Part shown: positions 1,330 to 19,939 of the stretch, in pieces | Layout: every line of letters starts with the position of its first letter | Position numbering within the stretch: position 1 is the stretch's first letter | Assembly: GCF_019285735.1 (NCBI RefSeq) | Contig: NZ_CP079107.1 | Span: forward strand, 1-64,000 | DNA: 64,000 bases | Origin: Paeniglutamicibacter sp. Y32M11 | GTDB taxonomy: Bacteria > Actinomycetota > Actinomycetes > Actinomycetales > Micrococcaceae | Direction of reading: 5' to 3' | Translations under genes and position numbers: made by a program | Notes under the pieces: generated by a model | What the model saw: only the letters and a program-made list of their open reading frames with translations | Database searches by the model: none | What the model was told of the DNA's origin: nothing

Positions 1330-2232
1330 ACGAGCCTCAAATCCAATAACCACAGGTGTGGATAAACCTGTGGATCATTAAGTGGACTACTGCAATTAAC
1401 TGCGGATAACCATGCAGTGGGCTGTGGACGGTTAATTTCTCTCAAAAAGTTGTCCACCGGGGCGTGACACTCAGTGTCACGCCCAATCACATGTTGTGCA
1501 CATGCATAATCGGTACGGTTCCGCGGCCCCAGGGACTTATCCACAGTATCCACAGGGGTTATTAACACTACTAACCCCATTTTTCTTATTCATCCAAATA
1601 ACAAGTCCCCTACGAGCACCAAGCGTGCAAACCATCTCCAAACGCAGTTTTGAAGACTTGCTTCAAACACTTTTCACGGGATCACGACGACACCTTGGAT
1701 GTATCCAGCTCGAGCAATCAGCAACCTCTCAATTTGACCCAAGGAAGATCTATCCCCGATGGATCTCCTCAGGAACCTTCAGAGGCTTCTTTCAGCAGCA
1801 CCGAACTAACCATCCATTCCTCACGAAGTGCACTCCCCCGGCACGTTGAATTTTTCGTTTCCACAGCAACAGCTGAGTTCGTACGGGAGGGTTTCTATTT
1901 GCTGAAGAGCTCCGGCTCAATAACGGACTGTCGGTTGAATCACTGCCATCGCACCTCTGGATCCCACTGATCCCCGATATGTACGTGCGTTTCTAGTTGC
2001 TCGTTGTTCGTTGCCAATGCCCCTTGGGAACTGGCAACTTCATGAGTCCTCAAAAACCGGTATGCTCGAAGGCTGTGCCACAGTTCTGCCTCAGTTGCAG
2101 TTGGCTCACATAGCAAGGACACCGAACGCAAGCCCATTCCAGGCGAGCTTTTTGGTTTTTAGCTTCCGTCAAGACGCTAAGCTTGCTCTAGCCCAAGTAC
2201 CATCGACGTCGTCGTGAAAGGCGGACCACTTC
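1330..2232. other. dnaA-dnaN intergenic region, putative oriC
   Basis: A 903-bp gap without a credible gene. DnaA-box-like nonamers: TGTGGATAA at 1357-1365 (perfect, reverse), TGTGGATCA at 1369-1377 and TGCGGATAA at 1401-1409 (one mismatch each), TGTGGACGG at 1423-1431 (two), TTATCCACA at 1537-1545 (perfect), and GTATCCACA at 1546-1554 (one mismatch, directly abutting). An AT-rich stretch follows at about 1558-1605 and is a candidate unwinding element; it begins with the palindrome GTTATTAAC (1558-1566). From 1606 to the dnaN start I see no clear boxes, repeats or genes. Location and boxes match the usual actinobacterial origin, but only two boxes are perfect. Confidence 0.8.
1460..1484. repeat. 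Perfect inverted repeat inside the origin region
   Basis: Two 11-base arms, GGGCGTGACAC and GTGTCACGCCC, separated by TCA. It sits about 130 bp after the dnaA stop, between the two groups of DnaA boxes. There is no T-run on the + side (AATCACATG follows), so it is a poor intrinsic terminator. It may be a protein-binding site or an RNA hairpin at the dnaA 3' end; function not known. Confidence 0.7.
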
Positions 2233-15309: not shown

Positions 15310-15334
15310 CCCCGTGGAGCAGGCAACAAGAAAA

Positions 15335-15369
15335 GTTGTCCACATTGGTTATCCACACTGTTAATAACT
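15335..15369 (+). repeat. DnaA-box module, copy 1 (copy 2 at 15615-15649)
   Basis: The two 35-bp copies lie exactly 280 bp apart in the same orientation. Each reads GTTGTCCACA, four spacer bases, TTATCCACACT, then GTTAATAACT. They match at 31 of 35 positions; all four differences are the spacer (TTGG versus AACC), so box sequences and 13-bp phasing are kept while the spacer is free. Confidence 0.92.
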
Positions 15370-15477
15370 CACAACCGTGTAATTCACATGAACCGGACCG
15401 GCTGTAGCGCCCGCGCTGACGCCGGTCCGATGTGTTTTCTGAACAAAAGCGAAGAATATGCACAATTTCATCCACAG

Positions 15478-15498
15478 CTGTGGATAACTTAGTGCACA
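15478..15498 (+). repeat. Second repeat family in the DnaA-box cluster (other copy 15737-15758)
   Basis: CTGTGGATAACTT followed by AGTGCACA here; the copy at 15737-15758 is identical except for one extra T (CTTTAG). Each contains a perfect reverse-orientation DnaA box and ends with GTGCAC. GTGCAC also occurs at 1496-1501 in the dnaA-dnaN gap. Confidence 0.88.
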
Positions 15499-15614
15499 AC
15501 CTGTGCAGTGTTGTGAAAGCTACTGACACGTAGAGTTAGGACGATTCTTCGAAAGTTTGAACGAATCCGCGAGAACATGCGGAAATTTAAGCTTTCCGGA
15601 CACCTCATGCTCTT

Positions 15615-15649
15615 GTTGTCCACAAACCTTATCCACACTGTTAATAACT
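15615..15649 (+). repeat. DnaA-box module, copy 2
   Basis: Second copy of the 35-bp module described at 15335-15369, with spacer AACC between the two boxes and the palindrome GTTAATAAC two bases after the second box. Confidence 0.92.
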
Positions 15650-15884
15650 TACGCACAGGCACCACGGGATAACTCAACCCCAACATTCCCCTTGGTCTTA
15701 GGTGTTTTAGGGTGAAACCCACAGCCTTATCCCCACCTGTGGATAACTTTAGTGCACAGCATGTTATTAAGTCTTGGGAAGATGTTTGTTGGACCTCTGG
15801 GCGGGAATCTTGAATCCTGAGAGACTGAACATTCCACACCCGTGCTTGTTATCCCCATATCCACAGCGAGACGAAAGGCAGACC

Positions 15885-16850
15885 GTGCGCCACGACTGGA
15901 TTCATCCCGAACACTTATCCGCATGGACCGCTTTGACCAACAAACTGGCGGAGGTCGATGACACCGAGGAATTCTATGAAGAGCAAGACCTAGCCGAGGA
16001 ACTCGCCGAACCTGGGGTTAATCCGGAGTTGGACACTCTGGGACTGTGGATTGACGGTGCCATGGTTGCATACGGGCAGCTTAGGTTGAGCGAGCACCTT
16101 CGCGACGGGCGAGGACGAGTTTTTATTGGGGGAGGCGTCGCGCCAGACTACCGAAAGCGCGGGCTTGGGACGGTCATCATGGGTGCCCTCGAGGCTAGGG
16201 CGGTGGAAAAGATGCGCGAAATCCACCCAGGCGTCGATTTCACCATCGATATGTGGGGAAATGCGCCGGGGCACAGCGCCTCAGCCTTTGCGGTGTCACG
16301 GGGCTATGAACCGGCACGACACTTCCAGGATATGGCCGTTACACCTGTCGAATTTCGCCGGCAGGATCGAACTCACGGAACGGCCACTAACTTACGCTTG
16401 GCTCACTATTCCGCTGATCTGGCTGAGCTGGTTCGGGAGCTGGACAATGAGGCATTCGCAGACCACTGGGGTTCCACGCCCAAAAGTGTTGCTGAATGGG
16501 ATGCCATGACGCGCGCGCGATCCTTCCGTAACGAATATTCTCGAATTTTGTTGGAGGTTGGGGATGGTCCCGATCAAGAGCGTGGGCTTTGTTATGTTCT
16601 GAGCGGTGAATGGGTGCCCAAGGAGCTCTATATTTCGCGCGTGGGCACGGCTCGATCCGCTCGCGGGCGCGGTTATGCCGCCTGGGCGCTCTCCACGGTT
16701 GTTGAGGCGGCCTTTGCTGGAGGCTATGTGAAAGTGGACCTTTCGGTGGACACGGAGAGCCCCACTGGAGCCGTGGGGCTCTATGAGCGTCTGGGTTTCG
16801 CGGTGGTTCGCCGAGGCACGATGTTTAGAAAGTCTTGCCTCGCCAGCTGA
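15885..16850 (+). CDS. GNAT acetyltransferase with two GNAT domains (MshD-like architecture)
   Basis: 321 residues from GTG at 15885 (AAAGG upstream). Both halves carry an acetyl-CoA-binding R-x-x-G-x-G/A loop: N-terminal VAPDYRKRGLGTVIMGALE and C-terminal VGTARSARGRGYAAWAL followed by GAVGLYERLGFAV. The tandem arrangement and length resemble mycothiol synthase (MshD), which acetylates the cysteinyl precursor of mycothiol, but many actinobacterial paralogues exist and I cannot assign the substrate. The gene abuts the DnaA-box cluster, so DnaA could influence its promoter (inference). Convergent with lysE. Confidence 0.85.
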   Translation: MRHDWIHPEHLSAWTALTNKLAEVDDTEEFYEEQDLAEELAEPGVNPELDTLGLWIDGAMVAYGQLRLSEHLRDGRGRVFIGGGVAPDYRKRGLGTVIMGALEARAVEKMREIHPGVDFTIDMWGNAPGHSASAFAVSRGYEPARHFQDMAVTPVEFRRQDRTHGTATNLRLAHYSADLAELVRELDNEAFADHWGSTPKSVAEWDAMTRARSFRNEYSRILLEVGDGPDQERGLCYVLSGEWVPKELYISRVGTARSARGRGYAAWALSTVVEAAFAGGYVKVDLSVDTESPTGAVGLYERLGFAVVRRGTMFRKSCLAS

Positions 16851-19505: not shown

Positions 19506-19757
19506 CTAGCGCCAGCCGGTGGTCATGAAGAACCCGACCATGGCCAAGCCGAAGCCAATGACGATATTCCAGCCGCCGATTATCGGGATCGGCAGTACCG
19601 TCTGGGAGATGTAGTAGACCATGATCCAAATCAAGCCAAGGATCATCAGCCCAAACATGACAGGCTTGTACCACTTGGGCAATGGCTTGTCGTAGGTCTG
19701 AGCATCGCTGCCGCCTCGCGGCTTGTTGTTCTTGCGACGAGTCTTGGATTCAGGCAC
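19506..19757 (-). CDS. crgA: Cell division protein CrgA
   Basis: 83 residues from a GTG at 19757 (minus-strand AAGGAG upstream), normal size for CrgA. A charged N-terminus (SKTRRKNNKP) is followed by two membrane helices (about 33-53 and 60-79, ending MVGFFMTTGWR). The KPLPKWYKPVM segment is the conserved pre-helix motif. CrgA is an actinobacterial inhibitor or coordinator of septation that interacts with FtsZ, FtsQ and penicillin-binding proteins. It lies beside the pknAB/rodA operon, as in mycobacteria and streptomycetes. Confidence 0.94.
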   Translation of the reverse strand: MPESKTRRKNNKPRGGSDAQTYDKPLPKWYKPVMFGLMILGLIWIMVYYISQTVLPIPIIGGWNIVIGFGLAMVGFFMTTGWR

Positions 19758-19939
19758 TGCTGCTCCTTGGATGATCATCGGGCATCGACACGAACGAACG
19801 TGCACGTGCTCGACCGGTAGGCTTGTCACTGTGTCACAAGGAACTAGTTCCTCACGCCACACTTAGTTCCAATACTATCCGCTCTAACTGAAAGCCGCCG
19901 GGGTACAAGCTGCCCCGGAGAGCTGTGAGGGAAGTTCGT

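Follow-up and report, generated by a model that had tools for sequence, protein, structure and literature searches.

A DnaA-box cluster near crgA in Paeniglutamicibacter and its relatives, with a predicted McdR site in fixed register

To our knowledge, how Actinomycetia keep DnaA in check is poorly understood. In the 64,000-nucleotide stretch of Paeniglutamicibacter sp. Y32M11 analyzed here ("the window" in what follows), a sequence-only reading had pointed to a second cluster of DnaA boxes some 14 kb from dnaA, and had proposed that it could be the main origin or the second half of a split origin, a DnaA-titration site, a reactivation site, or an element for autoregulated control of the adjacent GNAT gene. 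The question that the locus raises is which of these roles, if any, fits the cluster once its anatomy, its neighbors and its counterparts in related genomes are taken into account.

All ten boxes, four of them perfect, are found at 15336-15865, where they had been placed. The perfect boxes (TTATCCACA) start at 15349 (+), 15479 (−), 15629 (+) and 15738 (−), and the one-mismatch boxes are TTGTCCACA at 15336 and 15616, TCATCCACA at 15468, TTATCCCCA at 15727 and 15849, and ATATCCACA at 15857, with an 11th box (TTATCCGCA) at 15915 inside the GNAT open reading frame. The gap that holds the ten (15310-15884) is indeed untranslated, being bounded by the stop of the rhomboid gene upstream of the element (PF01694; 14359..15309, + strand) and by the GTG of the GNAT gene (15885..16850, + strand), with the final box ending 19 bp before that GTG. 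The claim that the cluster exceeds chance also holds, as the window has 24 matches at up to one mismatch compared to 6.38 ± 2.33 in shuffled sequence, and none of 100 shuffles reaches 24; of the 31 perfect boxes in the whole 4,173,408-bp genome, four are in the rhomboid-GNAT gap. The dnaA-dnaN gap has the two perfect boxes attributed to it, plus three one-mismatch boxes, such that the boxes of the cluster are both more numerous and better.

What the earlier reading missed is that the gap is a partial tandem duplication, comprising two box modules with a repeat distance of 259-280 bp, each of which starts with a tandem pair, TTGTCCACA-N4-TTATCCACA, followed 132 or 111 bp further on by a head-to-head pair. 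In module 1, the box scan and repeat analysis place the tandem boxes at 15336..15357 (+), with a spacing that is kept in all eight aligned same-genus gaps (the first box is TTGTCCACA in seven and TTATCCACA in one). The same-genus alignment then shows a degenerate inverted box, TGTTAATAA, at 15359..15367 (−), with two mismatches, which overlaps by 1 bp a McdR-type palindrome, ACTCACAACCGTGTAATT, at 15367..15384. This palindrome, likewise missed before, agrees with the published McdR motif AATnACAnnnnTGTnATT at 11 of 12 positions and has its spacer intact. A GC-rich hairpin follows at 15394..15429 (+), an inverted repeat with TTTT a few bases on, which is probably the terminator of the rhomboid gene, and the module closes with the inverted pair TCATCCACA-GC-TGTGGATAA at 15468..15487, found in both the box scan and the same-genus alignment. 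Between the modules, at 15546..15584, the alignment of eight same-genus gaps gives a partly conserved block without boxes (TTCGAAAGTwTGAnCtAATCCGCG ... GGAA). Module 2 has its tandem boxes, again TTGTCCACA-N4-TTATCCACA, at 15616..15637 (+), 280 bp past those of module 1, then an alignment-defined copy of the TGTTAATAA/McdR region at 15639..15664, in which the left half of the McdR site is retained and the right half is unrecognizable here and retained in several relatives, and finally the inverted pair TTATCCCCA-CC-TGTGGATAA at 15727..15746. Two more one-mismatch boxes lie at 15849..15865 (+), where most same-genus relatives have just the ATCCACA core. Seven of eight same-genus genomes, the present one among them, have two exact copies of the tandem pair at a distance of 280-281 bp, and 12 of 149 family genomes have one copy or more.

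To follow the locus across relatives, GyrA was used as a handle, taking the best 80 matches listed plus further family and class genomes, and requiring ppiA just upstream of the rhomboid gene. This gave 106 loci (the window + 80 + 20 + 5), from which we dropped 14 without a usable rhomboid match, two that are not behind ppiA (L153 and L154) and one with less than 700 bp left (L053), leaving 89. The sample includes close relatives, and thus the counts below are of non-independent events; family labels come from database records or kinship tags, "other Micrococcales" are Microbacteriaceae, and the 17 "further class loci" include two (L141 and L142) of the same order. At least three boxes within 400 bp are found in the 1.5 kb past the rhomboid gene at 67 of the 89 loci, comprising 36/37 Micrococcaceae, 22/35 other Micrococcales and 9/17 further class loci. 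In the 700 bp past the rhomboid gene, the boxes seen and expected number 11 and 0.2 in the window, 223 and 9.8 in the 36 other Micrococcaceae loci, 130 and 3.8 in the 35 other Micrococcales, and 42 and 2.0 in the 17 further class loci, and the syntenic gap of three Streptomyces-size genomes has boxes as well. No such cluster lies behind the rhomboid gene in 13 of the 35 other Micrococcales, and L118, L143 and L144 are examples of loci without one. The sequence-only reading had held that relatives lacking the boxes at the syntenic gap would speak against it; at most of the 89 loci the boxes are kept, and the box-rich gap is old and widespread in the class, and no peculiarity of Micrococcaceae. 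In one locus (L140, genome G066) the block from dnaA to gyrA has the opposite orientation with respect to ppiA-rhomboid, and it is with the rhomboid gene that the cluster remains.

The neighbor on the other side is, in many relatives, the cell-division gene crgA (PF06781), which in the window lies at 19506..19862 on the − strand, convergent with the rhomboid gene, with GNAT, LysR-type and DUF3817 genes intervening between it and the element. At 57 of the 89 loci the rhomboid stop has a convergent crgA no more than 2 kb away (at 12 of the 89, a crgA match was not found in the available DNA or could not be placed, mostly because the locus ends), and of the 48 such loci that have the McdR motif, 40 have it within 300 bp of the crgA 3′ end. 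Two genomes of another family (G170 and G216) have no rhomboid match near ppiA, and have boxes and motif (12/12 and 11/12 positions) about 75 bp from the end of crgA; similarly, at L074 and L151 the element is missing behind the rhomboid gene, and motif and boxes are found within ~70 bp of crgA instead. By comparison, just 7 of 81 loci gave a GNAT match, which in one case is 4 kb off, with the boxes being far commoner. Autoregulated control of the GNAT gene is therefore rejected as the role of the cluster, and this gene is best seen as a neighbor in few relatives, outside the conserved element. As the element sits between convergent genes near the crgA 3′ end where there are no insertions, an ordinary promoter is unlikely.

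Could the cluster nevertheless be where replication starts, in place of the dnaA-dnaN gap, as the principal origin or as an indispensable half of a split one? We considered a second origin first, because the cumulative GC-skew curve of 464 kb reaches its lowest point at 15,945, right on the edge of the cluster, where the boxes also outnumber and outclass those of the dnaA-dnaN gap. The position of this raw minimum is confounded by gene orientation, since most genes between dnaA and the rhomboid gene are read from the + strand, and fourfold sites of coding strands in this genome are rich in C. We therefore placed orientation in the model for the intervening genes, in seven genomes and one Streptomyces-size genome, the start of which was presumed to be at dnaA-dnaN. 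The corrected GC skew leans to the cluster in seven of these eight genomes (summed chi-square difference 23.8), most strongly in the present genome and G158, with G156 leaning the opposite way, whereas the corrected TA skew leans to dnaA-dnaN in six of the eight (summed 11.9). The Streptomyces-size genome also leans slightly to the cluster in GC (by 1.0), and the codon bias of gyrA, gyrB and dnaN confounds even the orientation-corrected skew. GC and TA skew thus disagree and do not decide between the two gaps. The negative skew of other genes is seen also in loci with few or no boxes behind the rhomboid gene, and was therefore rejected as evidence for an origin.

The sequence of the two gaps speaks for dnaA-dnaN. 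The unwinding region of B. subtilis consists of boxes with trios (3′-GAT-5′), according to PMC10201434, and a module of this type, TTATCCACAGTATCCACAGGGGTTATTAACACTACTAA, lies in the dnaA-dnaN gap at 1537..1574 (+), where it is formed by two boxes, a GC spacer and tandem 5′-CTA (3′-GAT) trios and is invariant in all eight same-genus sequences. CTACTA or TAGTAG, the trio by which we would recognize oriC, is present at 1568 in this gap and absent from 15310-15884. The two regions share the same box consensus and have similar G+C (0.48 against 0.50), and differ in that the gap behind the rhomboid gene is without the trio. A published Kocuria genome likewise has its oriC predicted at dnaA-dnaN, with a DUE and trios. 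Furthermore, the distance of the element from the dnaN start is ~13 kb in the present genome and G216, 22 kb in G185, 31 kb in G215, 34 kb in G170, 45 kb in G193 and 55 kb in G226, and an element that is tied to crgA and the origin region at so variable a distance is ill suited to be half of an origin. The dnaA-dnaN gap thus most likely remains oriC, and we consider an origin at the cluster, whole or split, to be very improbable. The dnaA-dnaN gap also has a palindrome of its own, CGTGACACTsAGTGTCACG at 1463-1481, which is nearly invariant in the eight same-genus sequences.

The part of the element that the earlier reading did not describe, the palindrome, was noticed on reading the gaps side by side. 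When whole loci (~13-30 kb) were ranked for matches to its first form, GAATTACACNNGTGTAATTC, one of the two best lay within 1.2 kb past the rhomboid gene in 72 of 92. Our first idea for its binder was an autoregulated DUF3263 protein, and regulators of the BldD, MtrA, WhiA, NrdR and CopY types were also considered; all were dropped in favor of McdR on the motif published in PMC9040748 (mBio 2022). McdR (Rv1830) is an essential MerR-family regulator of mycobacteria, which, according to PMC9040748, binds AATnACAnnnnTGTnATT at whiB2, MSMEG_0833 and MSMEG_5468, with the spacer length being important, represses whiB2 in M. smegmatis, and does not bind Rv0430 (also printed Rv0340), the M. tuberculosis homologue of MSMEG_0833, which is without the motif. 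Upon McdR overexpression, the same text describes repression of division genes, induction of dnaB and dnaN, and, in M. smegmatis, an increase in origin-proximal copy number. The site in the gap shares with the published operators the 12-position palindrome and the 4-bp spacer, and differs in its setting, as the published sites lie in promoters and this one beside DnaA boxes, mostly between convergent genes.

Scored against the published motif, 74 of the 89 loci have a match of at least 10/12 within 700 bp past the rhomboid gene (34/37 Micrococcaceae, 33/35 other Micrococcales and 7/17 further class loci), compared to 66 of 2560 other 700-bp windows of the same loci (2.6%), a conservative control because those windows include the motif sites of the oriC region, and 20 of 2581 permuted palindromes in the gap. 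Across the present genome the motif occurs at seven places with up to one mismatch, and at 50 with up to two, compared to 15 for the reversed motif. Two Sinomonas loci have one more group of boxes ~3-4 kb behind the rhomboid gene (L060:22205-22300 and L061:22187-22282), accompanied by a McdR motif that matches at 11 and 10 of 12 positions, respectively.

A protein that could read this site is present throughout. Our McdR candidate in the present genome is a MerR-family protein (PF13411) encoded at L252:2098-2700, behind FtsR (NCBIfam equivalog) and a BFN gene, with a gene that is FHA-like by eye in front, and its tentative assignment as McdR is based on gene order, by comparison with M. tuberculosis, and on the fit of motif and targets. 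Candidates 60-93% identical to it occur in all 31 genomes searched, comprising counterparts of 60-80% identity at all 16 other BFN loci and of 69-93% in all 14 further genomes, including G227 and G228, where no BFN gene was found. As the candidate is present throughout, it does not account for the pattern of motif loss.

The strongest single argument that the boxes and the palindrome act together is their spacing. A search over 1.3 kb gave 77 motif sites, and at 73 of these one of the fixed spacings separates the motif from a box of no more than one mismatch. The same holds for 2351 of 30,107 positions (7.8%) from the 200 bp around the sites, and for 105 of 15,400 positions picked at random from the loci. 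At 37 of the 77, and at 68 of the 30,107 neighboring positions, both boxes of the tandem pair are in register, and an inverted box with up to two mismatches overlaps the motif by 1-2 bp at 68 of the 77 sites. The core of the element is a composite operator in which a tandem pair of DnaA boxes, a weaker box in inverted orientation and the predicted McdR site keep a fixed register, approximately TTRTCCACA-N4-TTATCCACA-(N1-3)-TGKKRATAA running into TnACAnnnnTGTnATT. Proximity by itself is a weaker control: a box lies within 60 bp of all 79 motif sites in the gap, yet this is also the case for 46 of 59 motif sites elsewhere in the loci, mostly sites upstream of dnaA or between dnaA and dnaN. Of the 22 motif sites that lie in none of the three regions, 7 have a box within 60 bp, L074 and L151 near crgA being among them. 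Such a rigid register is what would be expected of proteins acting on each other, and suggests joint action of DnaA and McdR at the gap.

The gap could of course be a plain DnaA titration site, with the palindrome a neighbor that has another job. Clusters of DnaA boxes near oriC in B. subtilis (Okumura 2012) and S. coelicolor (Smulczyk-Krawczyszyn 2006) are said, in the summaries of other papers, to repress untimely initiation, and the gaps of the three Streptomyces-size genomes keep boxes without the motif (the best matches being 7-8 of 12, with the McdR candidate present). The fixed register at 73 of 77 sites, and the recurrence of the pairing upstream of nrdH described below, point instead to the two acting jointly, and we judge this explanation to be unlikely. 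It is, at the same time, true that the motif-less gaps in Streptomyces-size genomes and the partial coverage of the class loci count against a joint McdR-DnaA element, as does the observation from the B. subtilis literature that early initiation is strong only when six clusters are removed.

Returning to the element with both DnaA boxes and a predicted McdR site, its closest described likenesses are these clusters, two of which go by the names H69 and D78 in S. coelicolor. Like them, the gap has DnaA boxes near but outside oriC, and the DBC criterion of at least three boxes in non-coding DNA outside oriC describes it; by its sequence, it would be a member of this type. It differs from them in having boxes in register with a McdR site and a crgA-near place that recurs across the class. 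A further likeness is datA of E. coli, which is described as a DnaA-binding locus outside oriC that acts with a second DNA-binding protein, IHF, where the gap would have McdR as the second protein; datA and DARS, the loci that E. coli uses to control DnaA, are absent from B. subtilis. The earlier statement that no element had been described here in Micrococcaceae is in line with our own literature search, in which the words McdR and DnaA were used separately, and which found the B. subtilis and S. coelicolor clusters and no paper on the rhomboid-crgA gap or on a DnaA-McdR pairing. New relative to these known systems are a predicted McdR site that keeps register with the boxes, a position near crgA that recurs, and a link to nrdH and oriC.

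This link comes from the distribution of the motif elsewhere. We inspected all 28 other places in ten genomes that match the palindrome core with up to two mismatches. Ten are upstream of WhiB-family genes (five by Pfam, five by eye), as published for whiB2, two are upstream of nrdH, one of a DUF3263 gene, two of genes that are secreted-hydrolase-like by eye and one of a gene that is ArsR-like by eye, one is in a dnaA-dnaN gap, one is beside the dnaB cluster of the present genome, and ten have no such neighbor that we recognized. At L222 (genome position 153357) and L233, a perfect or near McdR motif lies upstream of secreted proteins that by eye are RipA/NlpC-P60 hydrolase-like. For nrdH, which was assigned by protein match alone, we searched 19 genomes, eight of which gave no match, and in all 11 others (L253-L263) a McdR motif of at least 10/12 and at least one DnaA box lie upstream of the best NrdH match. 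Two of these loci (L253 and L254) were found via the palindrome itself, so that 9 of the 11 are independent, and the pairing occurs at none of seven further NrdH matches. In L253-L255 the motif shares 2 bp with the box, and six Micrococcaceae loci have 11 bp between the two.

The nrdH pairing is in a promoter position, and together with the McdR motifs upstream of WhiB genes and the co-directional GNAT gene that follows the gap in the present genome, it would be compatible with the gap being a promoter element as well, at which DnaA and McdR regulate a transcript (a small RNA, or one antisense to crgA or the rhomboid gene). The flanking genes are convergent at the 57 loci counted above, and we therefore regard such a promoter as quite unlikely.

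Around the presumed origins, the McdR motif occurs in 29 of 82 dnaA-dnaN gaps, 24 of them from Microbacteriaceae; at least two of the 29, those of L041 and L136, overlap AT-rich DNA that follows the trio and could have arisen by chance. In Microbacteriaceae (for example L084, L104 and L112), the motif has a recurring context, ACA-ACTCACAnnnnTGTAGTT, inside the presumed oriC. Upstream of dnaA it is found in 15 of 80 loci, nine of which are Arthrobacter relatives (L045, L047-L051, L053, L067 and L075), where it overlaps a AACCACAACGGTGTAATTATCCACA-type DnaA box ~290 bp upstream of the gene. The oriC region of the present genome has no McdR site of at least 10/12, and this, together with the decayed second site in module 2, again counts against the joint reading. 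A third box cluster of the present genome (L006:4413-4756, genome 4077821-4078164), with eight boxes, three of them perfect, lies upstream of dnaB. We considered the palindrome there (4077821) as a third composite, and rejected this because, taking the best dnaB match of each of 19 genomes, a motif of at least 10/12 is seen in just one; boxes are present upstream of dnaB in all 19, with at least three in 16.

The DUF3263 genes provide a further comparison, and we take Rv0430 to be a DUF3263 protein. The palindrome, at 13/18 or better, is found upstream of DUF3263 in 8 of 18 loci, one of which (L209) was found via the palindrome itself, and not upstream of DUF3263 in the present genome or its congener G141. 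In L201-L205 and L208-L210 the McdR-like palindrome just upstream of the DUF3263 start is the best match of the locus (overlapping the start in L210).

Taking these observations together, we lean, with slightly better than even confidence, toward the gap being an origin-proximal, non-coding reservoir or control element for DnaA that is tuned by McdR through the composite operator. Of the roles in the sequence-only reading, a titration or reactivation site would fit best. Mechanistically, DnaA would assemble on the boxes and so be held away from oriC, as has been proposed for datA and for the B. subtilis and S. coelicolor clusters, and McdR, with a site that touches or overlaps the inverted box, would alter this assembly. 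We expect McdR to compete with DnaA, such that high McdR would free DnaA and allow more initiation, while repressing division via whiB2; that McdR antagonizes rather than assists DnaA is our guess, and the binding of both proteins at the gap, as well as the direction of the effect, are inferred from sequence. In the main text of PMC9040748 DnaA has no occurrences, and its DIP-seq, where five peaks are mentioned, has three named targets in the available text, none of them at the rhomboid-crgA gap, which counts against McdR acting with DnaA there.

The copy-number effect of McdR overexpression has the sign that would also be expected if the gap were a DARS-like, DnaA-reactivating element and McdR a cofactor promoting nucleotide exchange on DnaA, and head-to-head boxes resemble the general build of such sites. 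As relief from titration accounts for the same effect equally well, we regard reactivation as decidedly improbable.

For the McdR-tuned reservoir, the fixed register of DnaA boxes and McdR site near crgA suggests a switch that may link cell division to the start of chromosome copying. More tentatively, and to us a possible but doubtful extension, the gap could be for actinobacteria what datA/DARS are for E. coli, a single locus near crgA devoted to the gating of DnaA by McdR, such that initiation is set by the state of the division program, with the same pairing at nrdH and, in some lineages, at oriC coupling dNTP supply and origin firing to one checkpoint; if so, this would directly explain why McdR overexpression raises origin-proximal copy number. 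If the reservoir reading itself is correct, a locus common to Micrococcaceae and other families of the class would have DnaA boxes next to an operator for a division regulator that is essential, and the published effect of McdR on copy number, for which no mechanism was given, would become a testable hypothesis.
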